A DNA stretch of 64,000 nucleotides, from NCBI GenBank assembly GCA_013360295.1, contig JABWCL010000001.1, positions 62,001-126,000 on the forward strand, read 5' to 3'. A model generated the notes under the pieces. That model saw only the letters and a program-made list of their open reading frames with translations. It was not told the origin of the DNA and made no database searches. This stretch comes from Ignavibacteriaceae bacterium. Lineage in GTDB: Bacteria; Bacteroidota; Ignavibacteria; Ignavibacteriales; Ignavibacteriaceae. The position numbers and the translations under genes were made by a program. Below are positions 3,687-64,000 of this stretch, piece by piece (within the stretch, counting starts at the first letter, position 1; the number at the start of each line of letters is the position of its first letter).

Positions 3687-5897
3687 CTATTTAATGTACA
3701 TTAATTTGGTTGATATACTCTCCCTGCCACCGGTGACACGAATATAATAAACTCCTGAAGATTGAGATTTCATACTAAGGGGAACTTCGTTCATCCCATC
3801 CCGCATTTCGCCGGAAAATACTTTTTCGACAAGGCGCCCAAGCTGATCATAAAGTTCAACTGTATATTCTCCCCTCTCGCGTATCAGGCATACCAACTTA
3901 GCATTTGTGATAACCGGATTTGGTGATACAAACACCTGCATCCTGCTGATATTTCTATCCGCTTCTTCTTCGATCGATGTTGGGAGATCGAAGAATTCTA
4001 TTATTCTTTTTATCATAGTGTTCCGGATGGAAGTATCTTCGATAGTCTCAAATGCAAAAGCCAGATAAACTAACTTTCCGTTTATAAAACCTCCGGGGAA
4101 TATTCCGTTGAATGAGACACCCGCTAACTGGGAAGGATTATACTGCAGTACCGGTACGCTGCCATTCAGAGTATCGATAACATCAGGATGATCCTCCGGA
4201 TAGGTTATCCCGAAAGTGAAATTTGGTACACCCGTAAAAATACTGCCTGAAACGGGTTCCGCGGATGGGAAATTCGGATTGGGCTCATCGGCAACAAACG
4301 CCGCCTTAAGATACTTGTTGTAAAAATCTTTGTCATTAAAATCGCCGTTCTGAAAAAGATCAAATCCGATTTCGGAGCCTGTGACAAATACCCTTCCCCC
4401 TTGCTTCAGATAGTCCTTGATTACGGTCTGTTCTACTGAAGAAAATGTTGTGTGCTCGGTGGATTCATCCCCGACAAACCAGATAACTGCATTATAAGGT
4501 ATCAGCTGGGCGCTTTGATTAACGACAAAACTACCAACCGTTTCATATTTTACGTTCAACTTTGAGAGCGCATTCCCGTAAAAAGAAGCAAAATTGTGGT
4601 TCGGCTGCGTATAGCTGCCGGTTCCTGTGTTACGTGAGAAGCCGTCAATGATGAGCACCTTCTTCGAATTTCCCGACACATACGCCCCGTAAACGTTTGA
4701 ATAATTAGTGCTTTCTCCAAGGTTGTTTCTGGCTTTAAGTTTGATGAAATAACTTTTCCCCGCGCTCAGTCCGGAAATGGAAGAACTAAGAAGGTTACCC
4801 GCGACAGAACGGTTTGGAACAGTGTCAAAATTCATTCCATCCTCGGAAAGATAGATATCATAAAAGTCAATAGTGCCTGTCGGCTTTTCCCACTGGAAAA
4901 AAATTGAACTTGCGGTAGATTGCACTGCTTTGATTTTAACATCACCTACAGTCTCGGTAACCCGGAAAGTCAGATTCAGCCTTGTAATTTTTCCACTCTG
5001 CACCACTCCTATAACAGACATTGTATCCCTGGAAGTGGTTAGCTTAATTGTGTACGACCCCTGCGGGAGTGAGTCAAAGCGATAAAAACCCGATCCGAAA
5101 TCATCCAAAATAAGCTGTTTTCCTACCGACTCAATCTGAACCTTAACGTTCTTGGCCGGTGTACCGGTCGTACTATTTGTGACAACACCAACGAGTGAAC
5201 CGTGAGTAGGCATCGGCTGATTGTAGTACTGAAGAAAACTATGGAACAGAGCCTCTGCTTCTGTCTCAAGATAATCGAGGTTTGCGAGTCTGATCCTCTC
5301 CGCCGGAAAATCAAAGAAAGACCCTTCACTCAAAGTCCCGGGCATATTGAGTGTGCTCAGTACACCCAGGTTAAATGTAAGAAAACAGTAATCTCCTCGG
5401 TGAATCCCAGAAGTCGTCCACAATGCTCCGTAGAGCCTCGCCGCCTGGATTTCCGCCATACGGTCCGCCTGATTCGGCCAGGCAGGGTTTCCGTTCGGAC
5501 AACTATTTGCGTTAAGTTGTTTGAACAGGGAGAGAGAATAATTCGATGTACCATTGAAAGCATTATGATGCACCGAATGAAAGAAATTAACGTTATTATT
5601 ATTTGCTATGGTTTTTCGCTGAGTGAGTGTTATACATGGACTAACAGAATCGTAGTCTGCCCTGGTTGTTATTACTGTCGCTCCAGCAGAAAGCAAATAT
5701 CTCTTAAGATAAGGAACCACTATGTGATTAATATATCCCTCGAACCTCTTGGTTTCGGCATCGCCGCATACAGATGCCTGCCCGGGAACAAACCCGTGCC
5801 CCGGATCAAGACAAAATTTGATACCGCTCAGACTTTGTGAATAAGCAGTGGTACTTAAAACAAAGAACAAAATAATTATACTTTTCAGGAGTCTCAT
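3687..5897 (-). CDS. Secreted N-acetylmuramoyl-L-alanine amidase, multidomain, T9SS-sorted
   Basis: The 736-residue protein has a signal peptide, then an Amidase_3 zinc hydrolase domain (about residues 25-225) that would cut the bond between MurNAc and the stem peptide of peptidoglycan. The expected ligands and catalytic residues are all visible: His in DPGHG, Glu in RFEGYIN, His in FHSVHHNAFNG and Glu in TLSEGSFFD. Next come a carboxypeptidase-regulatory-like Ig domain (about 235-305), a fibronectin type III domain (about 320-410), a Rossmann-like region resembling class I glutamine amidotransferase/ThuA folds (KKVLIIDGFSRN to about 650) and a T9SS sorting domain ending in KLMYIK. The frame is open from a TTG at 5909, but ATG 5897 directly precedes the signal peptide. 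It lies downstream of a GHL10 hydrolase. Confidence 0.88.
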   Translation of the reverse strand: MRLLKSIIILFFVLSTTAYSQSLSGIKFCLDPGHGFVPGQASVCGDAETKRFEGYINHIVVPYLKRYLLSAGATVITTRADYDSVSPCITLTQRKTIANNNNVNFFHSVHHNAFNGTSNYSLSLFKQLNANSCPNGNPAWPNQADRMAEIQAARLYGALWTTSGIHRGDYCFLTFNLGVLSTLNMPGTLSEGSFFDFPAERIRLANLDYLETEAEALFHSFLQYYNQPMPTHGSLVGVVTNSTTGTPAKNVKVQIESVGKQLILDDFGSGFYRFDSLPQGSYTIKLTTSRDTMSVIGVVQSGKITRLNLTFRVTETVGDVKIKAVQSTASSIFFQWEKPTGTIDFYDIYLSEDGMNFDTVPNRSVAGNLLSSSISGLSAGKSYFIKLKARNNLGESTNYSNVYGAYVSGNSKKVLIIDGFSRNTGTGSYTQPNHNFASFYGNALSKLNVKYETVGSFVVNQSAQLIPYNAVIWFVGDESTEHTTFSSVEQTVIKDYLKQGGRVFVTGSEIGFDLFQNGDFNDKDFYNKYLKAAFVADEPNPNFPSAEPVSGSIFTGVPNFTFGITYPEDHPDVIDTLNGSVPVLQYNPSQLAGVSFNGIFPGGFINGKLVYLAFAFETIEDTSIRNTMIKRIIEFFDLPTSIEEEADRNISRMQVFVSPNPVITNAKLVCLIRERGEYTVELYDQLGRLVEKVFSGEMRDGMNEVPLSMKSQSSGVYYIRVTGGRESISTKLMYIK

Positions 5898-49014: not shown

Positions 49015-49965
49015 ATGATAGCAAAATTTTGGGGAGTGCGCGGTTCAATACCAGCGCCCCCGACTTCAAAAGAAGTTAAATTTAAGATGCTCAGGCTGCT
49101 CGAACAAGCAGCTAATCACGATATCAGTACACCTGCAAAGCGAGAAGAATTTCTGCAGACAGTAGATGAAAAACTTTTGGGTGTCCTCGGAGGCAATACT
49201 TCCTGTGTTGAATTGCGCGTTGAAGATAAGATTTTTATTTTCGACATGGGCTCCGGTTTACGCGAACTCGGACAATACCTCATCAACAAAGTCGGCAACT
49301 CAGAATCGCTTGAACTCCACATTTTTATTGGTCACACTCACTGGGATCACATTCAGGGTTTCCCTTTCTTCCTCCCTGCGTATAATTCAAAAACCACAAT
49401 AAACTTTTACCACCTTCACCCTCAGTTAAAAGAACGTCTGGATTTACAGCAGGACTTCAGGTTCTTCCCGGTTTCACTGGATTATATGGCGAGCAAGAGG
49501 ACTTACAACCAGCTCCAGGTTGACTCTGAGATAACAATTGGTAAAGTTAAAATCAAAACCATCGAACTTAATCATCCCGGTAAGGCTTTTGGCTATAGGG
49601 TCGAATACTGCGGGAAAACTTTTATCTATGCCAGCGACAGCGAATACAGTAATCTCCCACCCGAGCGGATTAATAAGTATATAGATTTTTATAAGGATGC
49701 AGATCTTCTTGTATTTGACGCGCCTTATTCATTTAATGAGGAATTAGAAAAGATAAACTGGGGACATAGTTCAGCACTGGTTGGAATTGATATATCGGTT
49801 AAAGCCAGAGTTAAACACCTGGCATTATTTCACCACGCGCCAGAAAATGATGATTATGAAGTTTTTAAATTACTTGATACAGCCCTGCACTATAAACAGA
49901 GGAACTACCCCCTCGCGAACCTGAATGTCTTCCTGGCCCGCGAAGGGATGGAAATAAATCTCTGA
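49015..49965 (+). CDS. MBL-fold metallo-hydrolase, PqsE/phosphodiesterase-like
   Basis: The 316-residue protein begins MIAKFWGVRGSIPAPP, a signature of a family of cytoplasmic MBL phosphodiesterase-like enzymes. Zinc ligands are GHTHWDHIQGF, the His of ELNHPGKAFGYRV, the Asp of YASDSEYS and a late His in LFHHAPENDD. The substrate is probably a nucleotide or cyclic nucleotide, by analogy. A GGNTSCVEL segment precedes the first zinc motif, as is normal for the family. The gene stands alone between divergent and convergent neighbours. Confidence 0.82.
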   Translation: MIAKFWGVRGSIPAPPTSKEVKFKMLRLLEQAANHDISTPAKREEFLQTVDEKLLGVLGGNTSCVELRVEDKIFIFDMGSGLRELGQYLINKVGNSESLELHIFIGHTHWDHIQGFPFFLPAYNSKTTINFYHLHPQLKERLDLQQDFRFFPVSLDYMASKRTYNQLQVDSEITIGKVKIKTIELNHPGKAFGYRVEYCGKTFIYASDSEYSNLPPERINKYIDFYKDADLLVFDAPYSFNEELEKINWGHSSALVGIDISVKARVKHLALFHHAPENDDYEVFKLLDTALHYKQRNYPLANLNVFLAREGMEINL

Positions 49966-49983: not shown

Positions 49984-50829
49984 CTATCTTACAGTTATTC
50001 TTCCCGGTCTGGGGTTAGAAAACGATATTAACTGCCCCCTGCTGTTTCTTAAATCCATATTTGTAATATCAAGGCTGGACGTACCGGCAGCTTTGGCATC
50101 GAATACCAATGTAATGATCCTGCCAGAACCTGAAATCGAATTTGCGGGATAAGACGCAAAGTCCATTAGGAAAGCAGAGTTAATCTCAATACGACCGGTA
50201 TTGTTCGCATTTTCGAGTATTCTGGCGTCTGAATAATCAGGTAATATAATCTGACTCAGCCCGCGAATAGCAGCCAATTGCCCCGTCCTGATACCCGCTA
50301 AAGAGAGAAGATTTTTATCAAATGTCATTATAATTCTGAATCCTGTAAGACTATCGACATCTTCCATCCACAAAGAAACAGAATCGCGCTGACTGACACT
50401 CATCGAAGTGTTTACCCTGTAAAAAGAAAAGGTCGGCCCAACGATGGAATTGACCGTAAAATTCCTCTTTAATGCAGGTGATTCTATACCGGCAGCAAAA
50501 GCTTGTACCTCAAAAGTATAATTACCTTCATCCAGGTTTGTAAATGAAACTTCGGAAGCACGTGAGTATTGAGTCCAGTCCTGGTATGTAGTAGGGAAAT
50601 TATCCGCGTCAATGTACATCAGACGGTAGCGGAATTGAAAATCTGAACCGCTCCCCGTCCAAACGAGAGTGACTCGATCGATAGATACAACTGAACCCTC
50701 TGCGGGACCTTCTGTTATCTGAAGGAACGGAGGAGGATTATCCACAATTCCGTTACCTGTACAAGAATGCCACAAAAGCGAACTTCCGAGGACGAATAGA
50801 ATAAAAATAAAAAACCGAGTTTTAGTCAT
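49984..50829 (-). CDS. Cohesin-like-domain lipoprotein
   Basis: The 281-residue product has a lipoprotein signal (MTKTRFFIFILFVLGSSLLW, lipobox WHSC), an Ig-like domain (about residues 30-125: RVTLVWTGSGSDFQFRYRLM, LDEGNYTFEVQAFA) and a C-terminal cohesin-like beta-sandwich (about 135-281: SVSLWMEDVDSLTGFRIIMT, GRIITLVFDAKAAGTSSLDI). The start at ATG 50829 is preferred over a GTG at 50844 that directly follows the giant gene's stop. It lies 15 bases downstream of a giant T9SS protein that has a dockerin-like segment, so a cohesin-dockerin contact between them is possible but unproven. Confidence 0.75.
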   Translation of the reverse strand: MTKTRFFIFILFVLGSSLLWHSCTGNGIVDNPPPFLQITEGPAEGSVVSIDRVTLVWTGSGSDFQFRYRLMYIDADNFPTTYQDWTQYSRASEVSFTNLDEGNYTFEVQAFAAGIESPALKRNFTVNSIVGPTFSFYRVNTSMSVSQRDSVSLWMEDVDSLTGFRIIMTFDKNLLSLAGIRTGQLAAIRGLSQIILPDYSDARILENANNTGRIEINSAFLMDFASYPANSISGSGRIITLVFDAKAAGTSSLDITNMDLRNSRGQLISFSNPRPGRITVR

Positions 50830-50844: not shown

Positions 50845-53800
50845 TTATTTAATGAGCATTAATTTCTTAGTCATAGTGTAGTTATTAGTCCTTAACTGAT
50901 ACAAATAAACGCCGCTTGGCAGATTAAGATTTGACGCATTCATGTCAAGAACATAACTATAGGTTCCCTGAACCTGTTCTTCATTGATCAGGGTTGCGAT
51001 CCTTTGCCCTAATATATCATAGAGAATCAGGCTAACACTCGCCTTTTCAGGCAGGTCGTATCTGATTGTAGTATAAGGATTGAACGGGTTTGGATAATTC
51101 TGGTACAACTGGTAAGTAACTGGTACTTCCTTCATTGAGTATACTATAGAAGAACTGCCTACAACCTGCAAACCCGAGTTAATAATACGGGAGTTGACAA
51201 GTATTGAGTCACGTATACCCAGCGATCCGTCAATGGCTTTTATTCTGGCGTTGATCACAAACTCAGGAGTAATATCGCCGGATAATTCCGCGATATCAAT
51301 GACGATTCTGCCGTTGAGCGTGTCGATATACTTCAATATTACTGGCGATGTAAAACTACCGTTAACCGTCAGAGAATCGAAACTGATACGGGATGGATCA
51401 TAGAATATCTCATATGAAGCAGCCATTAATCCTTTGGTACCCTTCAGATCAACCGGAAGTACAAATGATTCACTGTTCTTAACAATGTTCATTTCTTTTC
51501 GCTCCGTCGCCGCAGAGAATGAAGACTCCTTACCTTGCTTTGGCAGACTGCGGTTCACCTGATAATAATTCCACATATCAACGAAGACAAATAAATCTTC
51601 AAGATCAAGACGCTGGTTCCGCCTTACGGTAATTTTCGGAATGGTGTTCACATAAGGCGCCAGATCAGCCGCGAGGATCGAATCCGCGCTGGACCAGAAT
51701 TTAACAAACGAGCCAAGATCGAGTATGTCTATCGCGTTGTCAGAATTGAAATCCGCGGCAGCACGCGATTTGAAGCTAACATCATAATTCCTCGAATTTT
51801 CGAGAGGATCCGAAACAGTGACCCTGATCTGGTAATCGCTACTGGTCTTTATGTTAGTGATAATCGTCGAGTCTCCGGAGATTCTCGCATTAGGAATAGT
51901 GTTGAATATTGCAGAATCCGTGGCGAAAATATTATATATAAGTGGGCTATTCAGATCCTGTGCGGGATCATAGCTCACACTCATAGAGCCCCAGCCATAT
52001 TTCAGAGGATCCTGAACCACGCTAATAGAAGAAATATCCATTAGAGGCGCTTTATTATCAACCCCGAAACTGTCAATCTGCAGCGGATAGGTTACATTAA
52101 AGTTTGAAGTAAAGGTCGCTTTAAGCGTAACTCTACCCTCGAACTCGTTCAGACTTGATCTGGAGTTCCAGTAAATTGTATCCACGACCGGACCGGTAAT
52201 ATTTTCATAGCTGCCAACCAATGCGTTTGTAACGTCATTGATGCCGGCAGAAGTCTCATATTCAAGCCTTGTGAGTGTCACACGCTCTCCCGGAGTGCTG
52301 AGACTAAAGAGAATTTTTACAGTGTCTCTTTGGTAGTTATGAACACTAGAAATTTTTGGAAATTCCAGAACTACGAAATTAGTATCGCTGTCGTCGTAAA
52401 TAAGAAGATCATTTTTATCCACTATCCTGATTCTGGCTGTAGTAGTCTTAATGTTTGGAATAGTCCATTCATACTTCTGGGAATCCGCCGCGACTGAAGC
52501 AACAACAACCGGGAATGAATTTCCGCCGTCCGTTGAGTAGAGAATACGCAGCGAATCCATGAAGAATGATTGCCAGGTAATAGTTGTGCGGCCGTTTAGT
52601 TCAATAGCACTTAGCGTATTTGGTGAAGTAACCCTGATATCACTGATCCTAAAAGTGGTATCGCTGACATCAAAAATAGAAGGTGTGGATTCATCACTGA
52701 TCCGAACTAAACAATTATTGCTGGGAATATTGACCACATTCCATACAAACGTGCCGTTTACAGCAGGAACAGAGGAACCACCGGGCATGAGATTCCAGTC
52801 CTGTCCGCCGTTTATCGAATATTCAAGTTTCACGGCATTAATAAAACCGCTCTGCCAGCTGATGGTAAAAGGCTTTCCGGCCTGAACACGCTGGTTTGTG
52901 CCGCCATTAGGGAACGTTATCTTAATTGAACTTATAACAAAAGTGCTGTCGCTACCGTCTATAATTGAAGAATTTGCGGCATCACTTACTCTCACCCTGC
53001 CTGTAGCGGTTGGAGTGTTAGGAATTGTCCAGTTATAAATTCCGCCAAGCGCAGGAGCTGATTCAGCAATAATGATCCAGGAGATACCGTTATTGGTAGT
53101 GTACTCAAGTTTTACATTACTGATTGTACTGTCGCTGTGTATCCACCGAATCGTGTGCGCTGTGCCCAGGGTCTGATTAAACGCACCATTTGGAGATACG
53201 AGTTGAATATAACTGATAGTAAAAGTATTATTACTGGTATCTGCAATACTGGTTGCGCTAAGGTCGCGTAATCTGATCTTATAATTTCTGTTGGCCAAAC
53301 CGGCGTCAGCCATTGTTGCCCATGAATAACGTCCGCTGTCAGCCGGATAAGAGTTCTGTATCGTTGACCAATCGAGGCCTCCATTAGTAGTATACTCAAT
53401 AGCTAAATTACTTACAAATGAACTGAGCCAGGTTATGGATACATTTTGTCCGGCGAAAACTAATTGTCCGCCGTTAGGAGTAATAAGCTGGAGTTTAGCA
53501 ATCATTAATTTAGCGTTGGAGACATCAAGGAACGAGATATTTGATGAATTCCTCACACGTACGAATACCGAATCACCGGGTGTATCCGGAATTGTCCAGT
53601 TGAATGAACCAGCAGTAGCATCCAGGGATTGTGCGCCTGAAATCGGAATCCATACTGAACCGCCATTAGTCGAGTAATGAAGATCAACGAGCCTAACGTT
53701 TGAACTTACGCTCCATCTTACATTATATACAGCACCAACAAGGAGCTTCTCTCCTCCGTTAGGAGTAAGAAGCTGAATGGCGGAAAGCCGGAATACATTA

Positions 53801-56800
53801 TCAGATGCGTCAAAAACGAATGGGTTCGCCGCATCACTTATTCTTATAAGAACTGAGTCCGAAGTTGCGGACTGCGGAATTGTCCATAATACACTCTGCC
53901 CTGAAGCATTGATTGAGGAGAAAATATTCAACCAGGTGCCGCCATTGTCGTAAGAAACATCAATATCCACTGTGGTGATATCAGCGCTGTTCTCCCATCT
54001 GATCCTGGTAGTATCTCCACTGTAGAGATACTCTCCGCCGTTGGGAGCTAAAACCCTGATAAGGCTTATCGCGAAAGTTCCGTCAGAAACGTCATTGATC
54101 TGCAGACCCGAGAGTGCATCTGATATCCTGATCCGGCCGCTGTTTGTACCTATCATAGGAACGTTCCAGTTATATGATCCGTTGGCTGCGGGGAGATTAG
54201 TCGCGATACTTGTCCATACTGAATCTGTTGTATAGTCAATGTTTATCAGAGATACGTTAGAACTATTAAGCCACTGGATAGTGGTTGGCCTTCCTGCCTG
54301 GATAGATTCTCCTCCATTCGGAGTCTGGACAGTAACCCACCGAATGTTGAATTGACCATCGGAAGAATCGTGCAATGAAGGGTTATTAAGGTCTGTAACT
54401 CTTATTCTGGCTGAGGAGGATGAAATACCCTCGTTAATTGTCCAGTCATAATAACCTGAATCTGTGAGTACAGCCTGATTTATCAGATTCCATGAGGCTC
54501 CGTTGTTAAGAGTATATTCAAGACTAACGACCGGAATGAAGGTGCTATTCCATCTGATTCGCTGAGTTGTACCAGCCTGCCAGTACTCACCGCCGTTAGG
54601 AGCAGTTAGCACAAGCGTCGGAACAAAAATTGTGAACCTGCCTGATGTATCCATCACATTGGTCGCCTGAGGGGTTAGGATTCTAATCCGGCAGCTTGTC
54701 GATGCGATATTGTTCGGAATATTCCAATAAAAAACTGAATCCGTAGAGCTGATATTTGTTCTTATGGTATCCCAGGAAGTTCCGTTATTAGTTGAAATCT
54801 GGAGATTCACAGTTGAAATTCCGGGACTACTTACCCATCTGATCGGTTGTGAGGATCCTGCTCCCCAATTTGCGCCCGCGGTCGGATAAGTTATCAAAAG
54901 TCGAATAATGCTGAATGTCGTATCGCTCTTATCATTAATTACCAGTGAAGAAAGTGCATCGGTAACTCTGATCTTTGCTGTTCCCGAAAATACGGTAGTC
55001 GGGATAGTCCAGGCATAGGTTCCGCTATTATTTAAATTAGAAACGATATTTTGCCAGGTGCTTTCGTTATCAATGGAGTAGTCAATATTTACAACTGACA
55101 CGGAATTACTGCTGGTCCAGTTGATATTTGTTGTCTTGCCAGACTGATAAACCTCCCCTCCATTTGGAGAAGTTATCTGTATAAAGCCCGCTGTGAAATA
55201 ACCGTCGGTTGTGTCGGTTATTGAAGAATTAGCTGAAGAAGTGATCCTGATTTTACCCGTGATTGTTGATAAAGTAGCAGGAACAAGCCAGTTATATGAC
55301 CCGGATGAAGCATTGACCTGGGACGCAATGAGAGTCCATATAGACCCGCCATTTGAGGAATACTCTATGTTTAGGTTTGCAAGGTTACTGCTGCTGAGCC
55401 ATTGTATCGGATACGTGCTTCCTGAGAAATAATAGTTATTTCCGTTTGGTGACAAAACGGTTAATCTTTTAATCGCAAAAACATTGTTTGACTGATCAGT
55501 TACGAGGGTATCTACGACATCAGTTAAACGTACCAGGAACTGCGAGGAGGCGAGTGTATCCGGTATCTGCCATGCAAAAGTACCTGTCGCAGCGACGGTA
55601 GAGGCAATGATAAGTTCCCAGGTTGTACCATTATCCGGGGAATATTCAATTTTCAGGTTGTTCACCAGACTACTGCTCCAGGTAATATCTCGCTGTGTTC
55701 CGGCCTGCCATATTTCGCCGCCATTCGGAGAGGTTACGGTTAAACTCGGATAGAAAATTGAAAACTGGCCGCTTGTACTGCTTATGGAAGTTAGAGCAGG
55801 ATCAAAAACTTTAATCCTAGCCTGGCTTGAATTTATTATTGGCGGAATAGCCCAATCGTAGCTACCGGTTGAAGCATTCTGATTAGTAACAATATTGGTC
55901 CAGGTCGCACCGTTATCTGTTGAGTACTGAATATCTACGAGACTTACATCGCTGCTTCTCGTCCAGGTGATAGCCCGTGTCGTTCCACCTTGCCAGTTTT
56001 CTCCGCCAACCGGCGAAGTGAGAGCAAGTCCGGAAATCGTGAATACAGCATCGCTGCTGTCACGGATCTCAAGATTAGACGCTGCATCGACAACTTTCAC
56101 CAGACTGTTGGTTGAAACCGTCTGTGGTAAAGTCCAGGAATATGAGCCGCTTGATGCGGTTAGCCCGGAAACTACACTTAACCAGTTCACTCCATTATCA
56201 GTTGAGTACAGAATATCAACATTTGAAATACTGGCGGTTGCATTCCAGGTAATTGGTTGGCTTGCTCCGCTCTGCCATCTTTCACCGCCATTAGGAGTAA
56301 GTACGGTGATATTGCCAATCTTTGATGATTGTGAGCTGCTATCCACAATAAAAGCATTAAGTGCATCGGAAATTCTCACTTTAACCTGGGTACTAGAAAG
56401 TACAGGAATTGTCCACGCGTAACTGCCTGTATTTGCAGGAGTTGAAGCGATTATCGGGAACCAGGTACTACCATTATCGACGGAATAATCTATCTTTATA
56501 TTCGCTACCTGTGCGCTGTTCCAGGTAATATTTTTTACGAGTCCCGACTGCAGATAGTTAACGTCATTAGGGAAGGTGACATCCAGTAATTTTATCGTAA
56601 AGACAGCATCGGATGTATCTGCAATACTGTTATTCGATGCATCAAGAATTCTGACCCTGCCCTGAGAGGTTGAAACATCTGAAGGAATCTGCCAGCTAAA
56701 ACTGCCTGATGTAGCCGGTGTTGAAGCCGTGATCACACTCCAGTTCGTTCCGTTGTTTGTGGAGAACTCAATGCGCAAATTCTGAATAGATGTACTGCTT

Positions 56801-59800
56801 GTCCACTGAATGTTATAATTCTTCCCTGCCTGGTACTCTTCACCTCCATTTGGAGTCGTAACAGATAAGGTTCCTATCTGGAATGGATTATCACTCAGAT
56901 CACTTATCAAAGTATTAGAACTATCGGAGATTCTGATTCTGGCCTGAGTGGTTGCACTGTTCGGTACGAGCCAGGTATAAGTACCTGCTGCCGCAGTGAC
57001 ACTGTTACTTATCAGATTCCAGGTTGGTCCGTTATCGGAAGAAAACTCGATTCTTAGGGTTGAAATAACATCACTTATCCAGGTGATGTTCTGTACTGAA
57101 CCAGCCTGGTAATTCTCATTACCATTTGGTGAATTAACTCTTAACCGCTTTATCCGGAAAGAGCTGTTGCTGGCGTCTGTAAGCAGAGAATCAACTGCAT
57201 CTGATACTCTGATAAGTGCCTGCGATGAAAATAGATCCGCTCCGATCGCCCAGTTAAATGTTCCTGCAGAAGCAGGTGTTGAAGAAGTAATCGTGCTCCA
57301 GGAAGTTCCGTTATCGGTTGAATACTGAATCCTGACATTCGAAATGGTATTACTCGCTGTCCAGGTTATATTTGTTGAGGAACCGGACTGGTATTGTTCC
57401 CCTCCATTTGGTGAAGTAACTTCTATTGTACTTATCGAGAAAATAGCCTCACTGATATCACTTATTGCCAGACCGGAAGCTGCATCGCTGATACGCACTT
57501 TAGCCTGAGTGGTAAAGACATTGGGTGTACTCCAGCTAAAAGAGCCTGCTGCTGCGGGTGTTGAGGGGGTAATTAGTGTCCAATTCGAACCGTTATCCGT
57601 AGAATATTCGAGCCTGACATTTGAAATACTTGAGCTGTTAGTCCAGGTTATATTTCTTGTACCCCCGGCAAGAATATTTTCTCCTCCGTTCGGTGATACG
57701 ATATCAACTCTTCCAATCTTAAATACTCCATCGGTCGCATCTGTAACAGTTGGATTGATTACATCCACGACTCTAACTTTAGCTGTCAAACTAGAGAGCG
57801 TGTCATCAACGAGCCAGTTGTATGTACCGTTAGATGCCGGGACAGTAGCAGCAACCGTTCGCCAGGTTGAGCCGTTATCAACCGAATATTCGAGCCTCAC
57901 ATTAGTTACGAGGCTGGAAGTCCACGTTATGGGGTAGACTTTTCCTGCCTGGAAAAATTCATTTCCGTTGGGAGATGTCACTGCTAAGGTGGGGAAATAA
58001 ATCGAAAACTGTTTTGAAGTATCAGTAACCGTTAGGTTAGCCGAGTTAACAATCAAAATCCGCGCTGTGCTGGTATTTACTCCGGTTGGAACAGTCCAGT
58101 CAAATGATCCTGTAGCAGCATTTTGGTTCGCTACGATATTTGTGTATGAGGCACCGTTATCTAGGCTATAACTAATATTGAGAGTAGTTATATCCCCACT
58201 AGCAGACCATTGTATTGTTTTCGTGGAACCCCCAGCGAGGTTTTCCCCTTGAACAGGAGATACAACATTAAGTTTCGATATTGTGAAATTTGCGTCACTC
58301 GCATCTGCTATCGAAAGTGCTGAGGCGGCATCAGCGATTCTAATCCTTGCAATAGTACCCACAGCATCAGGAACGACCCAGGAATATGAACCTGCAGCCG
58401 CATTAAAAGAAGTTTCTATTGTTATCCAGTTGCTGCCGGCATCAGTAGAATAATATAGGGCAACGTTGGAGATATTAGAACTGGCGTTCCAGGTGATATT
58501 TCTCGTTCTTCCAACCTGCCAGGTCTCCCCACCATTCGGCGCTGTCACTGTGACAAAGCCTATCTTCAGAGTAGTATCACTAAGATCATAAATAGATGCA
58601 TTTGAAGCATCACTGATGCGAACACGTACACTGGAAGAGGAATTGTTCGGAACAGTCCAATTATAGTTCTGTGAACCTGCGCTTATATTATTGGCAATAA
58701 GAATCCAGTTAGATCCGTTATCAATCGAGTAATCGAGGCGGACGTTTGCTATTCCTGGACCGTTATTCCAAGTTATCTGTTTAGTCGAACCAACAGCCAG
58801 GTATTCACCTCCATTTGGAGCTGTTAACTGGATGGAACTGACGCTAAAGACATTATCACTCTGATCGGTTATCAGAAGTGCTGTAGCCGCATCGCTGATA
58901 CGCACAAGCATACTGGAAGATGCCAGACCAGCTGGTACCTGCCAAGTATAATTGCCACCCGCCGCAGCTGTGGAATTAATTATAGATGTCCAGTTAGTCC
59001 CATTATCTGTCGTGTATTCGATTTTCACATTTTGTACGCTAGTGGTACTGTTCCAGGTAACTGAATAATTGGTACCCGCCTGGATCAATTCACCGCCATT
59101 CGGTGCTAATACAGTAATATTACCTACTCTGATACCGGTGGAGGATGAATCTTTTATCTGTGTATTCGAAACGTCAGAAATTCGGATTAGTGCATTACTC
59201 AAAGAAAGCGCACCCGGAACGTTCCAGGAATAGGTCCCGGCAGCAGCCGGTGTGGAAGCTACAATTGTATTCCAGGTAGATCCATTATCATCGGTGTATT
59301 CTATTTTCACATTAGTTATTGTACCACTTGACCATGTAATATTTCTTGCTACACCTCCCTGCCATACCTCACCGCCGAGTGGTGAAGTCAGGCTTATGCG
59401 CTTAACGGTAAAGTCACCGCTTTGACTATTAATAAGAGTATTGGCAAGGTTCGTGATTTTAACACGGTTCTGGGTACTGTTCAGATTTGAAGGAATTGTC
59501 CATGCATATGTTCCATTAGAAGCCGGGACAGATGCCACAATAGTTGACCAGGTAGATCCGGCATCGGTTGAATACTCAATACTAATATTAGATATACCGG
59601 AATTTGCTGACCAGGTAATATTCTTTATTTTCCCTGCCTGGAATTCCTCTCCGCCCAAAGGTGCGGTGAGTACAAGGTTGCTGACAGCAAAAGTTGAATT
59701 ACTGGAATCCTTTATTGCAGTATTGGAAGCATCACTAACCTTAACAAGCATTTGTGATGAACCAAGCCCTAACGGAATCGACCAGCTGTAAGTACCGGGT

Positions 59801-62800
59801 GCGGCGCCAGTAGAGGTGACAACGCTCGTCCAGTTCGTTCCGCCGTCTGATGAATATTCAAGTTTAACATTAGTTACATTGCCACTCGTCCACGTTATGT
59901 TCTGTGATGTGCCAGACTGCCACTGCTCACCTCCGTTGGGAGAAGTCAATGCCAGGTTACTGATCTTAAAAGCGAAACTCGAATCATTAACCAAGGAGTT
60001 AGCCGCATCTGAAATTCTTATTTTAGCCGTGGAGGTAGCTAATCCCGCGGGAACCGACCATTGATAACTTCCGGATGAAGCTCCGACAGAACTCTCAATA
60101 ATACTCCAGGTGGTTCCATTATTAGTACTGTATTCCAGTTTAACATTAGAAATATTCGCGGAAGTCCACGTAATATTCTGTGATGTTAATGATTGCCAGT
60201 GGCTTGAAACAATCGGCGATGTCAGGTTCAGAACCGAAAAACTAAATACGTTGGAAGATGAGTCTTTAACATTAACATTAGAAGCATCCGAAATTCTGAC
60301 TCTGCCTTGTGAGGAACTTAAGCCTGCCGGTACGCTCCAAGCATAGGTCCCGGCAGCAGCGGCGGTGGAAGTGATTATTGTATTCCAGTTTGAACCGTTA
60401 TCAGTGGAGTATTCAAGTTTAACATTTGAAATTAAATTACTTGCGCTCCAGGTAATATTAAATGTAGCGCCGGACCGAAGTTTTTCTCCACCATTCGGGG
60501 CTCCCAGATCAAGGTATAATAAAGTAAAAGCGTTTGAAGAAACCGAAATACCTAATGAAGATTCCGCGTCGCTTAGCCTGATTCTTGCTGTTGATGAACT
60601 TAGAGTATTAGGAACTGTCCAGTTATAAGTACCTAGTGAAGCATCCACACCATTTGAAATCACATTCCACGTGGAGCCGTTATTAGTAGAATAGTCAACC
60701 CGTAAAGAAGTTACGGCTGATGAGTTAGTCCAATTAATAGATACCGTGTTTCCAGACTGTGCAATCGTACCCGTCGTTGGCGAGGAAATCTGGATCCATC
60801 CGAGACGGAATAAATTATCGCTCTCATCATTAACAGCGCTATTTACAGCATCACTTATTCGTACTTTTGCCTGGGTTGATGAAAGTGATGAGGGAATTAC
60901 CCAAGGATAAGTACCTGCAGCAGCAGGGGTTGAGGCAATAATTGTATTCCAGGAGGTGCCATTATCAGTTGTATATTCAATCTTAATGTTACTGACCAGC
61001 CCGGTGGACCAGGTGATGTTCTGTGTTGAACCTGATCTCCAGTACTCCCCTCCATTTGGAGAAGTGAGCTGGAAAGTGCTAATCGTAAAGAGACCGCTGC
61101 TATCGGCAATCGTGGATGATGCAGTCGAGGTAATCCTGATTCGGGCGTTAGTGGTATTCAAAGTACCGGGGACGGTCCACAGATAGTTTCCCGTTGAAGC
61201 TCCGGTAGAATTTGTTATAGTATTCCAGGATGTTCCTCCGTTTGTACTGTATTCCAATTTAACATTCTGGATGTTTGAGGTAGCCGTCCATTGAATAGAT
61301 TTTTGTCCACCTGACCTCACGACTTCGGCTGCAACAGGCGAGCTAAGAGTGATACTTCCGATAGTAAATGCAATTGAAGAATCCGATACCCCATCTGATA
61401 AAGTATTGGAAATCCTTACAATAGTTGAATTAGAAGGCGCGTTAGGGATAGTCCAGGAATAAGAACCGGAAGCTGCTGCAACACTTGCAGCGATCGTGTT
61501 CCAGGACGTGCCATTATTTGAAGAATACTCTAGTTTTACACTGCTGATTCCTGAACTTGTCCAGGTTATATTTCTTGAGGAACCGATAACTAGTCCCTCC
61601 CCACCTGCCGGGAAGGTAAGATCCAATGATGTAATGGAGAAAGAATTATCACTTAAATCAAGAACAGAAGCATTGCCAGCATCACTCACCCGAATCCGTC
61701 CCTGGGTTGTCACTGAATTTGGTACTGTCCAGGCGAAAGTCCCGAGAGCCGCGTTAACAGATGTGGCAACCGAACTCCAACTGGTTCCATTATCTGCTGA
61801 GAATGATATATTCACTGCGCTGATATTGGAAGCGCTCCATTGAATCTGGTATGATTTCCCCACCTGCAGAATCTCTCCTCCATTGGGCGAAACAACCTGC
61901 AAAGACTGAATCGTGAAAACATTATTGCTTACGTCATTTACGTTCGCGTCATTTACATCTCTAACCCTTACCAGAGCTGAAGATGAAGGAGTATTAGGAA
62001 CAGTCCAGGCATACGTCTGCAGGGCAGCGTTTACTGATGCTGCTATTACATTCCAGGAAGAACCGTTATTTGTCGAATAATCTAGTGCCACATTTGTCAC
62101 AGAACTGATATTAAGCCAGGTAATATTCCGAATGGTACCTGCTTGCCAGGTTTCACCGCCATTGGGTGAAGTAAGCTGAATAGAAGATATGCTAAACACA
62201 GCTGCGCTGGTATCGGCAACAAAAGAATTTGAAGCATCAGCAATTCGGACCCTGACCTGACTGGAAACAGTATTCGGAACAAGCCAGGAATAGCTTTTCG
62301 GTGCGGCTGGAGTGGACGCGATTACGGTACTCCAGGAAGTGCCGTTATTCGTTGTATATTCAATGCGAAGATTGGCTATCGAAGCAGAACTGCTCCAGGT
62401 GATGGGAACAGTACTGTTTACAGCAAAGACTTCTCCCCCATTGGGAGAAATAAGGGCTAACGAATTGATCGAAAAAACCGCGTTACTTTCATCGGCAATA
62501 TTATCTCCCGGATAGTCAGCGTCTGATATCCTGACTTTTGCCGAATTTGTAGAAACACCCGGTACAGTCCAGGCATATAATTGTGATGCCGCAGAAGTTG
62601 AATTAGTGATAGTAATCCAGGTCATGCCGTTATTGGTGGTATACTCAAGTTTAACGTTCGTAACATTCCCGCTGCTCCAGGTAATGTTATTTAAACTGTC
62701 AGCCTGAAGGAATTCTCCACCGTTAGGATAAGTCAGCTGAAGAGATTTTACGCTGAAAACTGCGTCACTCTGATCCTGAATAAAAGAATTTGATGCATCT

Positions 62801-64000
62801 GTAATTCTGATAAGTGTAGAATTGCCCGGGGCGTTCGAGACAAGCCAATTATAAGTACCGAGGGCAGCGTTCACAGACGAAGCGATGTTTGTCCAGCTGG
62901 TTCCATTGTTTGTGGAATACTCAAGGGTAACATTAGCAACATTTGAACTGTTAGTCCAAGTAATCGCTTTTGTTGTACCCGATAACCAGCGCTCACCACC
63001 ATTCGGTGATGTAACCGATAAATTAGCTATCTTGAATACGGCATCACTCTGATCGGAAAAGGCAGAATTATCCACATCAACAACCCTCACAAGCGCCTGA
63101 GAAGTAGGAGCATTTGGGACGGTCCAGTTATATGTACCTGAGGCAGCATTAAGGCCCGTTGCAATATTGGTCCAGTTGGTTCCACCGTTGGTAGAATATT
63201 GTAAATTCACCTGATTAATAATGGTGGATGTCCAGGTAATATTTTTCGATGCACCAATGATGAATCCTTCCCCTCCATTCGGTGAAGTAAGAGTCAGAGT
63301 GGCGATGGTAAAAGTTGCATCATTTGTATCTGAAATTGAAGCCGCGAAAGCGTCACTGATCCTGACTCGCGCATTACTTGTTGCAACATTGGGAACTGTC
63401 CAGGCATAAGTACCGGCCCCACCCGCTGTTGCACTTGTGATGGTTGTCCAGGAAGACCCGTTATTCGTAGAATACTCGAGTTTTACAAAGTTAACACTCG
63501 AACTTTTCAGCCATTGAATATTAAAGGTTGAACCGGCGAACACCTTTTCTCCGCCAACCGGAGCAGAAAGCGCAACATAGCCAACCTTGAACTGTCCCGA
63601 AGTTGAAGTAATGGTTGATGTACCGTTATCAGTGAGTCGAATTCTTCCCTGGCTGGCTGAAGCATTACTTGGAATAACCCAGGGAAAAGTTCCGGTTGTT
63701 GCATCAGCATTTGTAGTGATGGTTGACCAGTTCGTTCCATCATCTGAACTGTACTCAATAGTAAGAGAGACAAGATCACTGCTCGCTGTCCACGTTATAT
63801 TTTTAGTAGAACCTGCTCTAAGGGCTTCACCTGCAGTAGGTGCATTCAGAGTCAATCTTGAGACAGTAAACATACCGCTTGTAGAACTGATATCCATTCC
63901 CGTTGTAACATCTGAAAGGCGTATAAGAGCCTGGGTTGATACAAAAGAGGCTGGAATACTCCAGTTATAACTTCCTGAAGAGGCAGAGGTAGAATTAGTA
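50845..64000 (-). CDS. Giant T9SS-sorted surface protein with more than 41 Ig-like (Kre9/KNH-like) repeats; 5' end outside window
   Basis: The frame is open from the right edge to a TAA at 50845, giving 4,384 visible residues without the N terminus; the Met codon at 63897 is inside a repeat and is not the start. From the edge to about 52,361 it consists of repeats of about 92 residues with the pattern (L/I)xxxxPNGGExxxxGxxxxITWxS, xVxLEYSTDNGxxW, GxYxWxVP and ARVRISDA, ending D.SD..F.I. Then come a non-repeated beta-rich stretch, a dockerin-like segment (DFNSDNAIDILDLGSF and a degenerate partner RLDLEDLFVFVDMW, about 51,560-51,770), a cohesin-like domain (about 51,130-51,475) and a T9SS domain with LYQNYPNPFNPYTTIRYDL. 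It is probably a long surface adhesin or stalk. Substrate or partner unknown. Confidence 0.9.
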   Translation of the reverse strand, partial: TNSTSASSGSYNWSIPASFVSTQALIRLSDVTTGMDISSTSGMFTVSRLTLNAPTAGEALRAGSTKNITWTASSDLVSLTIEYSSDDGTNWSTITTNADATTGTFPWVIPSNASASQGRIRLTDNGTSTITSTSGQFKVGYVALSAPVGGEKVFAGSTFNIQWLKSSSVNFVKLEYSTNNGSSWTTITSATAGGAGTYAWTVPNVATSNARVRISDAFAASISDTNDATFTIATLTLTSPNGGEGFIIGASKNITWTSTIINQVNLQYSTNGGTNWTNIATGLNAASGTYNWTVPNAPTSQALVRVVDVDNSAFSDQSDAVFKIANLSVTSPNGGERWLSGTTKAITWTNSSNVANVTLEYSTNNGTSWTNIASSVNAALGTYNWLVSNAPGNSTLIRITDASNSFIQDQSDAVFSVKSLQLTYPNGGEFLQADSLNNITWSSGNVTNVKLEYTTNNGMTWITITNSTSAASQLYAWTVPGVSTNSAKVRISDADYPGDNIADESNAVFSINSLALISPNGGEVFAVNSTVPITWSSSASIANLRIEYTTNNGTSWSTVIASTPAAPKSYSWLVPNTVSSQVRVRIADASNSFVADTSAAVFSISSIQLTSPNGGETWQAGTIRNITWLNISSVTNVALDYSTNNGSSWNVIAASVNAALQTYAWTVPNTPSSSALVRVRDVNDANVNDVSNNVFTIQSLQVVSPNGGEILQVGKSYQIQWSASNISAVNISFSADNGTSWSSVATSVNAALGTFAWTVPNSVTTQGRIRVSDAGNASVLDLSDNSFSITSLDLTFPAGGEGLVIGSSRNITWTSSGISSVKLEYSSNNGTSWNTIAASVAAASGSYSWTIPNAPSNSTIVRISNTLSDGVSDSSIAFTIGSITLSSPVAAEVVRSGGQKSIQWTATSNIQNVKLEYSTNGGTSWNTITNSTGASTGNYLWTVPGTLNTTNARIRITSTASSTIADSSGLFTISTFQLTSPNGGEYWRSGSTQNITWSTGLVSNIKIEYTTDNGTSWNTIIASTPAAAGTYPWVIPSSLSSTQAKVRISDAVNSAVNDESDNLFRLGWIQISSPTTGTIAQSGNTVSINWTNSSAVTSLRVDYSTNNGSTWNVISNGVDASLGTYNWTVPNTLSSSTARIRLSDAESSLGISVSSNAFTLLYLDLGAPNGGEKLRSGATFNITWSASNLISNVKLEYSTDNGSNWNTIITSTAAAAGTYAWSVPAGLSSSQGRVRISDASNVNVKDSSSNVFSFSVLNLTSPIVSSHWQSLTSQNITWTSANISNVKLEYSTNNGTTWSIIESSVGASSGSYQWSVPAGLATSTAKIRISDAANSLVNDSSFAFKISNLALTSPNGGEQWQSGTSQNITWTSGNVTNVKLEYSSDGGTNWTSVVTSTGAAPGTYSWSIPLGLGSSQMLVKVSDASNTAIKDSSNSTFAVSNLVLTAPLGGEEFQAGKIKNITWSANSGISNISIEYSTDAGSTWSTIVASVPASNGTYAWTIPSNLNSTQNRVKITNLANTLINSQSGDFTVKRISLTSPLGGEVWQGGVARNITWSSGTITNVKIEYTDDNGSTWNTIVASTPAAAGTYSWNVPGALSLSNALIRISDVSNTQIKDSSSTGIRVGNITVLAPNGGELIQAGTNYSVTWNSTTSVQNVKIEYTTDNGTNWTSIINSTAAAGGNYTWQVPAGLASSSMLVRISDAATALLITDQSDNVFSVSSIQLTAPNGGEYLAVGSTKQITWNNGPGIANVRLDYSIDNGSNWILIANNISAGSQNYNWTVPNNSSSSVRVRISDASNASIYDLSDTTLKIGFVTVTAPNGGETWQVGRTRNITWNASSNISNVALYYSTDAGSNWITIETSFNAAAGSYSWVVPDAVGTIARIRIADAASALSIADASDANFTISKLNVVSPVQGENLAGGSTKTIQWSASGDITTLNISYSLDNGASYTNIVANQNAATGSFDWTVPTGVNTSTARILIVNSANLTVTDTSKQFSIYFPTLAVTSPNGNEFFQAGKVYPITWTSSLVTNVRLEYSVDNGSTWRTVAATVPASNGTYNWLVDDTLSSLTAKVRVVDVINPTVTDATDGVFKIGRVDIVSPNGGENILAGGTRNITWTNSSSISNVRLEYSTDNGSNWTLITPSTPAAAGSFSWSTPNVFTTQAKVRISDAASGLAISDISEAIFSISTIEVTSPNGGEQYQSGSSTNITWTASNTISNVRIQYSTDNGTSWSTITSSTPASAGTFNWAIGADLFSSQALIRVSDAVDSLLTDASNSSFRIKRLRVNSPNGNENYQAGSVQNITWISDVISTLRIEFSSDNGPTWNLISNSVTAAAGTYTWLVPNSATTQARIRISDSSNTLISDLSDNPFQIGTLSVTTPNGGEEYQAGKNYNIQWTSSTSIQNLRIEFSTNNGTNWSVITASTPATSGSFSWQIPSDVSTSQGRVRILDASNNSIADTSDAVFTIKLLDVTFPNDVNYLQSGLVKNITWNSAQVANIKIDYSVDNGSTWFPIIASTPANTGSYAWTIPVLSSTQVKVRISDALNAFIVDSSSQSSKIGNITVLTPNGGERWQSGASQPITWNATASISNVDILYSTDNGVNWLSVVSGLTASSGSYSWTLPQTVSTNSLVKVVDAASNLEIRDSSDAVFTISGLALTSPVGGENWQGGTTRAITWTRSSDVSLVDIQYSTDNGATWTNIVTNQNASTGSYDWAIPPIINSSQARIKVFDPALTSISSTSGQFSIFYPSLTVTSPNGGEIWQAGTQRDITWSSSLVNNLKIEYSPDNGTTWELIIASTVAATGTFAWQIPDTLASSQFLVRLTDVVDTLVTDQSNNVFAIKRLTVLSPNGNNYYFSGSTYPIQWLSSSNLANLNIEYSSNGGSIWTLIASQVNASSGSYNWLVPATLSTITGKIRITSSANSSITDTTDGYFTAGFIQITSPNGGEVYQSGKTTNINWTSSNSVSVVNIDYSIDNESTWQNIVSNLNNSGTYAWTIPTTVFSGTAKIRVTDALSSLVINDKSDTTFSIIRLLITYPTAGANWGAGSSQPIRWVSSPGISTVNLQISTNNGTSWDTIRTNISSTDSVFYWNIPNNIASTSCRIRILTPQATNVMDTSGRFTIFVPTLVLTAPNGGEYWQAGTTQRIRWNSTFIPVVSLEYTLNNGASWNLINQAVLTDSGYYDWTINEGISSSSARIRVTDLNNPSLHDSSDGQFNIRWVTVQTPNGGESIQAGRPTTIQWLNSSNVSLINIDYTTDSVWTSIATNLPAANGSYNWNVPMIGTNSGRIRISDALSGLQINDVSDGTFAISLIRVLAPNGGEYLYSGDTTRIRWENSADITTVDIDVSYDNGGTWLNIFSSINASGQSVLWTIPQSATSDSVLIRISDAANPFVFDASDNVFRLSAIQLLTPNGGEKLLVGAVYNVRWSVSSNVRLVDLHYSTNGGSVWIPISGAQSLDATAGSFNWTIPDTPGDSVFVRVRNSSNISFLDVSNAKLMIAKLQLITPNGGQLVFAGQNVSITWLSSFVSNLAIEYTTNGGLDWSTIQNSYPADSGRYSWATMADAGLANRNYKIRLRDLSATSIADTSNNTFTISYIQLVSPNGAFNQTLGTAHTIRWIHSDSTISNVKLEYTTNNGISWIIIAESAPALGGIYNWTIPNTPTATGRVRVSDAANSSIIDGSDSTFVISSIKITFPNGGTNQRVQAGKPFTISWQSGFINAVKLEYSINGGQDWNLMPGGSSVPAVNGTFVWNVVNIPSNNCLVRISDESTPSIFDVSDTTFRISDIRVTSPNTLSAIELNGRTTITWQSFFMDSLRILYSTDGGNSFPVVVASVAADSQKYEWTIPNIKTTTARIRIVDKNDLLIYDDSDTNFVVLEFPKISSVHNYQRDTVKILFSLSTPGERVTLTRLEYETSAGINDVTNALVGSYENITGPVVDTIYWNSRSSLNEFEGRVTLKATFTSNFNVTYPLQIDSFGVDNKAPLMDISSISVVQDPLKYGWGSMSVSYDPAQDLNSPLIYNIFATDSAIFNTIPNARISGDSTIITNIKTSSDYQIRVTVSDPLENSRNYDVSFKSRAAADFNSDNAIDILDLGSFVKFWSSADSILAADLAPYVNTIPKITVRRNQRLDLEDLFVFVDMWNYYQVNRSLPKQGKESSFSAATERKEMNIVKNSESFVLPVDLKGTKGLMAASYEIFYDPSRISFDSLTVNGSFTSPVILKYIDTLNGRIVIDIAELSGDITPEFVINARIKAIDGSLGIRDSILVNSRIINSGLQVVGSSSIVYSMKEVPVTYQLYQNYPNPFNPYTTIRYDLPEKASVSLILYDILGQRIATLINEEQVQGTYSYVLDMNASNLNLPSGVYLYQLRTNNYTMTKKLMLIK
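52361..64000 (-). repeat. Tandem array of about 277-bp coding repeats (41 full, one partial)
   Basis: Reading the frame from the edge I count one partial and 41 complete units, each beginning with a (S/T/A)PNGGE-like motif. Copies differ at many positions, so the array is old and evolves mainly as protein; I saw no pair that is nearly identical in DNA. Some units lack the GGE motif (for example units with SPIVSSHW and FPNDVNY). Unit length varies by only a few residues, and the linker between units is two to five residues. Confidence 0.9.

Follow-up and report, generated by a model that had tools for sequence, protein, structure and literature searches.

Architecture of a giant Ig-repeat gene

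We analysed a window of 64,000 nucleotides that corresponds to positions 62001-126000 of contig C48 in a genome of 4.46 Mb. Its far end is taken up by one minus-strand frame (50845-63999) that is stop-free throughout and encodes 4,384 residues inside the window. An original prediction, drawn from the letters of the window, had described a single unbroken frame of 13.2 kb with its N terminus beyond the window, and both statements hold. Following the contig outward, as had been suggested as a check, places the start of the complete gene at an ATG at C48:127346 (would-be window coordinate 65346, 1,346 bases beyond the window), which is preceded by AGGAG, and neither a stop codon nor a frameshift interrupts the frame just past the window edge. 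The N terminus appears signal-like by eye (residues 1-24: MNRIFTTLFFFVFVFSSIILPSKG). The full-length protein, hereafter the giant, comprises 4,833 amino acids, and its 14.5-kb gene ends with a stop codon at 50845-50847. An assembly collapse or expansion of the array had been named as the finding that would overturn the prediction. Exact DNA repeats within the giant gene all stay below 22 bases and complete orthologues are present in six other genomes, so such an error is unlikely and lacks support; the giant gene is genuine.

A unit profile search resolved the bulk of the giant into 46 units of about 93 residues that run gapless from residue 36 to 4326 with a period of 91-96 residues. Forty-one whole units fall within the window, in agreement with the 41 full Ig-like copies of about 92 residues originally counted. 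Their assignment to the Kre9-KNH type, for which an HMM search had been proposed, is borne out by a match to PF10342 with an E-value of 6.7e-89 and 293 bits against a Pfam gathering cut-off of 24.6. The copies had also been described as diverged, and pairwise identity between units ranges from 23 to 62% with a mean of 41%. Scaled from SiiE, in which 53 Ig domains span 175 nm (PMC6272769), a 46-unit thread would measure about 150 nm if stretched, which makes the envisaged rod of tens to hundreds of nanometres a reasonable one. A second Kre9_KNH array of at least 1,773 residues and about 20 units occurs in the same genome on contig C12 (L011:5991-11309); it has a lipoprotein-like start, and its other end is lost at the contig end.

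The 507 residues that follow the array carry fn3-like, dockerin-like and cohesin-like segments and a T9SS type A tail (Table 1). The tail, already recognised as a T9SS domain in the original prediction, scores 38.4 bits with TIGR04183 (cut-off 23) and has matches in 7/7 orthologues, and a full-length SprA translocon is encoded in the same genome (1,003 bits, cut-off 200). The dockerin-like and cohesin-like domains that had been proposed are visible as weak matches: the dockerin model scores below its cut-off of 29 bits here (17.4 bits with the whole protein, 20.9 bits with the C-terminal part), and the Pfam cohesin match is confined to two of the seven orthologues.

Overlooked in the first reading was a conserved gene for a cohesin-like lipoprotein directly downstream of the giant, a position that it holds in most of the loci that are complete. 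Seven of nine members of this lipoprotein family match Cohesin (best 9.3e-5), and the source-genome member scores 13.8 bits, under the cut-off of 24.1. The cohesin-like lipoprotein could bind the dockerin-like segment of the giant and thereby help to hold the giant at the surface. The site is marked by an MBL-fold (ribonuclease Z-like) gene on the plus strand (window 49015-49965), and several relatives lack both the giant and the lipoprotein gene there.

Table 1. Features of the giant locus, its upstream cassette and related loci. Plain coordinates are window positions; position p of L010 equals window position 64000 + p.
Feature	Position	Strand	Basis or remark
Giant repeat protein	50845..64000, on to C48:127346 (= L009:346-14847)	-	ORF reading and neighbouring contig sequence
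Kre9_KNH Ig-like unit array	52369..64000 (window part)	-	Unit profile and Pfam; 46 units in total
Conserved non-repeat region with fn3-like segment	51760..52368, residues 4327-4529	-	fn3 match in 6/7 orthologues
Dockerin-like segment	51568..51759, residues 4530-4593	-	NCBIfam NF041540, weak match in 7/7 orthologues
Cohesin-like segment (weak)	51154..51468, residues ~4627-4731	-	Pfam Cohesin in 2/7 orthologues, best 0.0078
T9SS type A C-terminal sorting domain	50857..51096, residues 4751-4830	-	TIGR04183, PF18962
Lipoprotein, Y_Y_Y and cohesin-like	49984..50829	-	Conserved beside the giant in relatives
GldL-like, 180 aa, two membrane helices	L010:9179-9721	-	Helix prediction and alignment
M1, 206 aa, one helix and beta-rich domain	L010:8529-9149	-	
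M2, 360 aa, exported, three Ig-like domains	L010:7382-8464	-	Homologue model
barA1, exported outer-membrane-type, aromatic C-terminal residue	L010:5780-7309	-	
barB1, exported outer-membrane-type, aromatic C-terminal residue	L010:4362-5753	-	
barA2, exported outer-membrane-type, aromatic C-terminal residue	L010:2825-4345	-	
barB2, exported outer-membrane-type, aromatic C-terminal residue	L010:1409-2818	-	
Four-helix GldL-like relatives before PorU-type sortase genes	L153:3589-4956, L154:3301-4824, L156:3743-5089, L167:3204-4526		

The array changes length in steps of two units

Seven complete arrays, that of the source genome included, were compared in orthologues with total lengths of 4,259-5,413 residues. 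The number of units is 46 in the source genome and 52, 50, 50, 44, 44 and 40 in the others, and is even in every case. With the general similarity of each unit removed, unit-by-unit colinearity among the first five orthologues read is strong for every one of the ten pairs (z 11 to 22; 0/300 shuffles as good), including pairs that span families. In unit-chain alignments of the 21 pairs, every one of 35 register changes involves an even number of units, and the same holds at other gap costs (40/40, 33/33 and 26/26). Only a very permissive gap cost yields odd steps (6/48, taken as noise; the remaining 42 even), and a planted single-unit deletion was scored as odd in 63/63 control trials. The 35 register changes stand for far fewer independent events, as the pairs share history and were counted pairwise rather than on a tree.

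Units two apart resemble each other more than neighbours do in 7/7 arrays, as expected if units duplicate in pairs. We also considered two clear unit types, A and B, for odd and even positions. This idea was dropped, since within single arrays odd and even units differ in an alternating way only weakly and at a few positions (z 0 to 3.5), and the pooled test, strong as it is, is inflated by orthology. Two relatives that belong to one genus could be aligned indel-free over 2,263 codons, with a dN/dS of 0.16. Taken together, the colinearity, the even steps, the likeness of units two apart and this dN/dS support selection on the sequence and on length in two-unit steps, and the view that the length is under selection, put forward in the original prediction, gains from the colinear orthologues and the dN/dS alike. 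The cause of the two-unit rule may be geometric, such as a rotation of about half a turn per unit or a contact made by two units.

The giant closes a putative operon with a conserved envelope cassette

The giant is the last gene of a putative same-strand operon in which it is preceded, outside the window, by a cassette for a GldL-like protein, M1, M2 and two barA-barB pairs, with intergenic gaps of 6-72 bases from the cassette to the giant. The prediction made from the window captured the giant secreted repeat protein, and the GldL-like/one-helix/barrel cassette lay out of its sight. Pfam and NCBIfam returned no named family for any cassette protein, and we found no description of this cassette in the open literature searched. 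The gene immediately before the cassette, in the source genome as in most relatives, encodes a DUF2254 membrane protein (L010:9973-11553).

Models of homologues inform two of the cassette proteins. In the M2 homologue model (pLDDT 92.8), a signal helix is followed by beta domains that read as three Ig-like domains, and GldM/PorM is absent from the fold matches shown for it. The barB homologue model (pLDDT 83.6) combines a helical N-terminal part with an antiparallel barrel that ends in a C-terminal aromatic residue. It resembles FadL-like channels, the best being TbuX (Z 14.0, rmsd 3.8 over 230 residues), and a chain of a T9SS complex (Z 12.5); as modelled on this homologue, barB is an outer-membrane beta-barrel.

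A profile-guided scan of named genomes recovered 34 cassette loci, whose titles name only Ignavibacteria/Ignavibacteriales, Melioribacter or Melioribacteraceae, Kapabacteria, Chlorobiota and Bacteroidetes. Two loci bear the name Melioribacter roseus. About 30 loci, most of them from Ignavibacteriales and Melioribacteraceae, keep the order GldL-like, M1, M2, barA, barB, in which the barA-barB pair is single or double, so the cassette is old, and the giant directly follows barB in ten of these loci as well as in the source genome. Some loci are free of the giant; there barB faces an MBL-fold gene, or the lipoprotein gene alone comes next.

The membrane pair resembles GldL and GldM in anatomy

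The GldL-like family shares the anatomy of GldL, namely two membrane helices with a basic residue in the first and an invariant glutamate in the second. Its helices span residues ~34-52 and ~79-97, with a buried Glu85 invariant in helix 2 and Arg49 nearly invariant in helix 1, 11 residues past the start of a GAA motif. In true GldL, collected from the phylum with the GldL model itself, GAA is followed at the same distance by a lysine and Glu49 is invariant in helix 2; the latter is essential for both secretion and gliding in Flavobacterium (PMC8986121). M1 likewise has a nearly invariant, buried glutamate inside its sole helix.

Neither TIGR03513 nor PF22827 gives a GldL match over cut-off in the source genome, where the GldM model TIGR03517 also has no match; elsewhere in the phylum TIGR03513 does detect GldL, in 28 genomes, and none of the class members listed has GldL over the curated cut-off. 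When helix-only profiles of the cassette family and true GldL are compared, 25 of 100 shuffles reach the observed score, so that the likeness does not exceed chance, and the match of the M1 profile to the GldM N terminus is equalled by 3 of 100. An apparent likeness between the full-length profiles of the GldL-like family and true GldL was rejected, its alignment covering the coiled tails only. Sequence searches of the PDB found relatives of neither M1 nor M2; the GldL-like family had tail matches only, among them a PorL/GldL tail at E 0.12. These comparisons of sequence are at best suggestive of homology between the membrane pair and GldLM.

A wider search found distant GldL-like relatives within the class only, often two per genome and without a MotA/TolQ/ExbB match in Pfam. 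Four helices are predicted in most of the relatives that were read, helices 2 and 3 being joined by a long loop and the last two by one as short as that of GldL. Against the true GldL profile their GAA and glutamate line up, a result matched by 3 of 200 shuffles and suggestive of common descent with GldL. In four loci from other families of the class, the four-helix relative lies directly before a PorU-type T9SS sortase gene, and this adjacency lends contextual support to a T9SS-linked energising role. Two variants were also seen. One other family of the class has an M1 relative of 430-470 residues, as if M1 and M2 were fused, in GldM-like fashion (L158:4923-6335, L159:5194-6480), and in some genomes the tail segment of the GldL-like protein is doubled (L038:4300-4986, L040:12328-13002).

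The giant occurs only with the cassette

The distribution of the three components was assessed across 116 genomes of the order, with the C-terminal module of the giant (408 residues, T9SS tail excluded) as the query for the giant. SprA is present in 116/116 and the GldL-like gene in 36, two of these 36 matches being weak. The giant module was found in 13 genomes, every one of which also has a GldL-like gene, and in none of the 80 that lack this gene, an association with hypergeometric probabilities of 4e-8 by genome and 1e-3 by genus, both optimistic given the relatedness of the genomes. Among the loci read, the giant adjoins the cassette wherever one contig spans both. The giant was thus seen only in company with the cassette, and the cassette can manage without the giant: no giant was detected in 23 of the 36 genomes with a cassette, which implies that the cassette has some use apart from it.

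Additional arrays were noted in two relatives. Genome G003 encodes another two giants on other contigs, with arrays of 27-28 units (L149:625-10269, reverse complement, and L150:1-9522) and C-terminal modules only 28-29% identical, and these are possibly other clients of a cassette. In genome G001, of the same genus, a giant C terminus with a module 69% identical is followed by the same lipoprotein (L151:1-4389), and this piece sits on a different contig from the G001 cassette.

A proposed surface filament with a motor-like cassette

The GldL-like/one-helix/barrel cassette and the cohesin-like lipoprotein together suggest a filament at the surface that is served by dedicated, energised machinery in the envelope. 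We propose, with a probability of roughly 0.5, that the giant is a T9SS-exported surface filament or adhesin, and that the cassette is a motor-like, ion-driven device dedicated to handling it. The giant would be exported by Sec and then by the T9SS, as its tail and the presence of SprA suggest, and would be anchored at the surface by the T9SS and perhaps also by the cohesin-like lipoprotein. The GldL-like protein and M1 could assemble into a GldLM/MotAB-type motor driven by ions, with M2, an exported Ig protein, carrying force or contact across the periplasm and the barrels serving as the outer-membrane end of the machine. We infer the motor function of the cassette by analogy; judged from its anatomy, its linkage to the giant and the parallels with SprB-GldLM and SiiE-SiiAB (PMC8986121, PMC9389320, PMC6272769), the machine may move, position or retain the filament. 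The length of the filament would be kept by selection, with the two-unit step as its structural module.

A broader and more tentative proposal, which we consider possible and do not favour, is that the cassette represents a dedicated Ignavibacteriales envelope motor and the giant its client, a thread that would evolve only by two-domain steps because a two-unit register governs its geometry or its contact with the machine; the porU-linked relatives would then supply the energiser that the T9SS of the class seems to lack. An envelope motor of this composition, with a GldL-like protein, a split GldM-like partner and paired barrels, is not described in the literature that we found. That literature also yielded no description of gliding in this group, and Melioribacter roseus has been reported with flagellar motility (PMC3534657).

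The giant could instead be a static scaffold or stalk, a spacer or adhesin anchored by the T9SS and by cohesin-dockerin-like contacts with the lipoprotein, and the cassette a separate envelope system that merely shares the operon. The pairing of a dockerin-like segment in the giant with an adjacent cohesin-like lipoprotein fits this arrangement, as do the 23 of 36 cassettes without a giant and those that run straight into the lipoprotein or MBL-fold gene. A free-standing adhesin would not need the cassette, however, and the absence of the giant from all 80 genomes without one, together with a gene order conserved over two families, makes a static role rather unlikely.

The adjacency of the distant GldL-like relatives to a PorU-type sortase in four loci also allows that the cassette is the general T9SS energiser of the lineage and the giant one cargo of many, a notion in keeping with the abundance of T9SS tails in these genomes and with the failure to detect canonical GldL and GldM in the source genome. 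Since all 116 genomes of the order have SprA and only 36 of them the GldL-like gene, the cassette would be dispensable for the T9SS, unless its relatives are too diverged to be seen. We have set the cassette aside as a plain T9SS motor on this distribution, and regard the general energiser as improbable.

An S-layer-like or sheath protein around the cell would share with the giant its size and repetitive Ig-like make-up and nothing else that we observed; the strict one-to-one order of diverged units across species, like the strict dependence on the cassette, speaks for one long thread with position-specific units, and a sheath is very unlikely. Repeat genes are frequently misassembled and the paralogous array on contig C12 does stop at a contig end, yet an assembly or annotation artefact, or a repeat gene in decay, found no positive support and can be dismissed almost entirely given DNA free of exact 22-base repeats, seven complete orthologues, and a related pair with 2,263 indel-free codons at a dN/dS of 0.16.

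Should the giant prove to be a motor-handled surface filament, it would be another example, within the wider Bacteroidota, of an ion-driven motor coupled to a giant surface protein, and would help to separate the parts of GldLM that are needed for export from those needed for motion. It would also bring forward a candidate for the T9SS energiser of a class in which SprA was found in 116/116 genomes of the order and GldL over cut-off in no member listed. The even-only changes of unit number, in arrays that stay in register across families, are, in addition, a rare measurable sign of what sets length and phase in a giant repeat protein.

Comparison with known systems

The unit family of the giant is a known one, matched here far above its cut-off, and what distinguishes the giant from other Kre9_KNH (PF10342) repeat proteins is an array of 40-52 diverged units held in register across species. 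Its dockerin-like segment and the cohesin-like neighbouring lipoprotein recall the cohesin-dockerin pairs of cellulosomes, although the matches in the source genome lie below the curated cut-offs and no enzyme scaffold is seen.

The SprB-GldLM system of Flavobacterium gliding offers a closer parallel, as there too a giant T9SS-exported surface protein is found in a genome with SprA. The membrane pair likewise couples a two-helix with a one-helix protein, and shares the invariant glutamate in helix 2, the basic residue in helix 1 and beta-rich periplasmic domains. In contrast to GldLM, the GldL-like protein and M1 miss the GldL and GldM models, the periplasmic part is split over two genes, the paired outer-membrane proteins belong to no known family, and no named GldK or GldN is adjacent. 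Unlike SprB, the giant is built from Kre9_KNH units and comes from a group in which gliding is not known.

The SiiE-SiiAB system of Salmonella SPI4 provides the second parallel, in that a thread of about 50 Ig domains is encoded with a MotAB-like membrane pair, and that pair, SiiAB, controls the retention of SiiE at the surface (PMC6272769). SiiE is, however, secreted by a type I system and built from BIg domains, whereas the giant has a T9SS tail and Kre9_KNH units, and the cassette described here also encodes outer-membrane barrels. Taken alone, the giant is a protein of a known sort; it is the cassette and the two-unit rule that set it apart as a variant.
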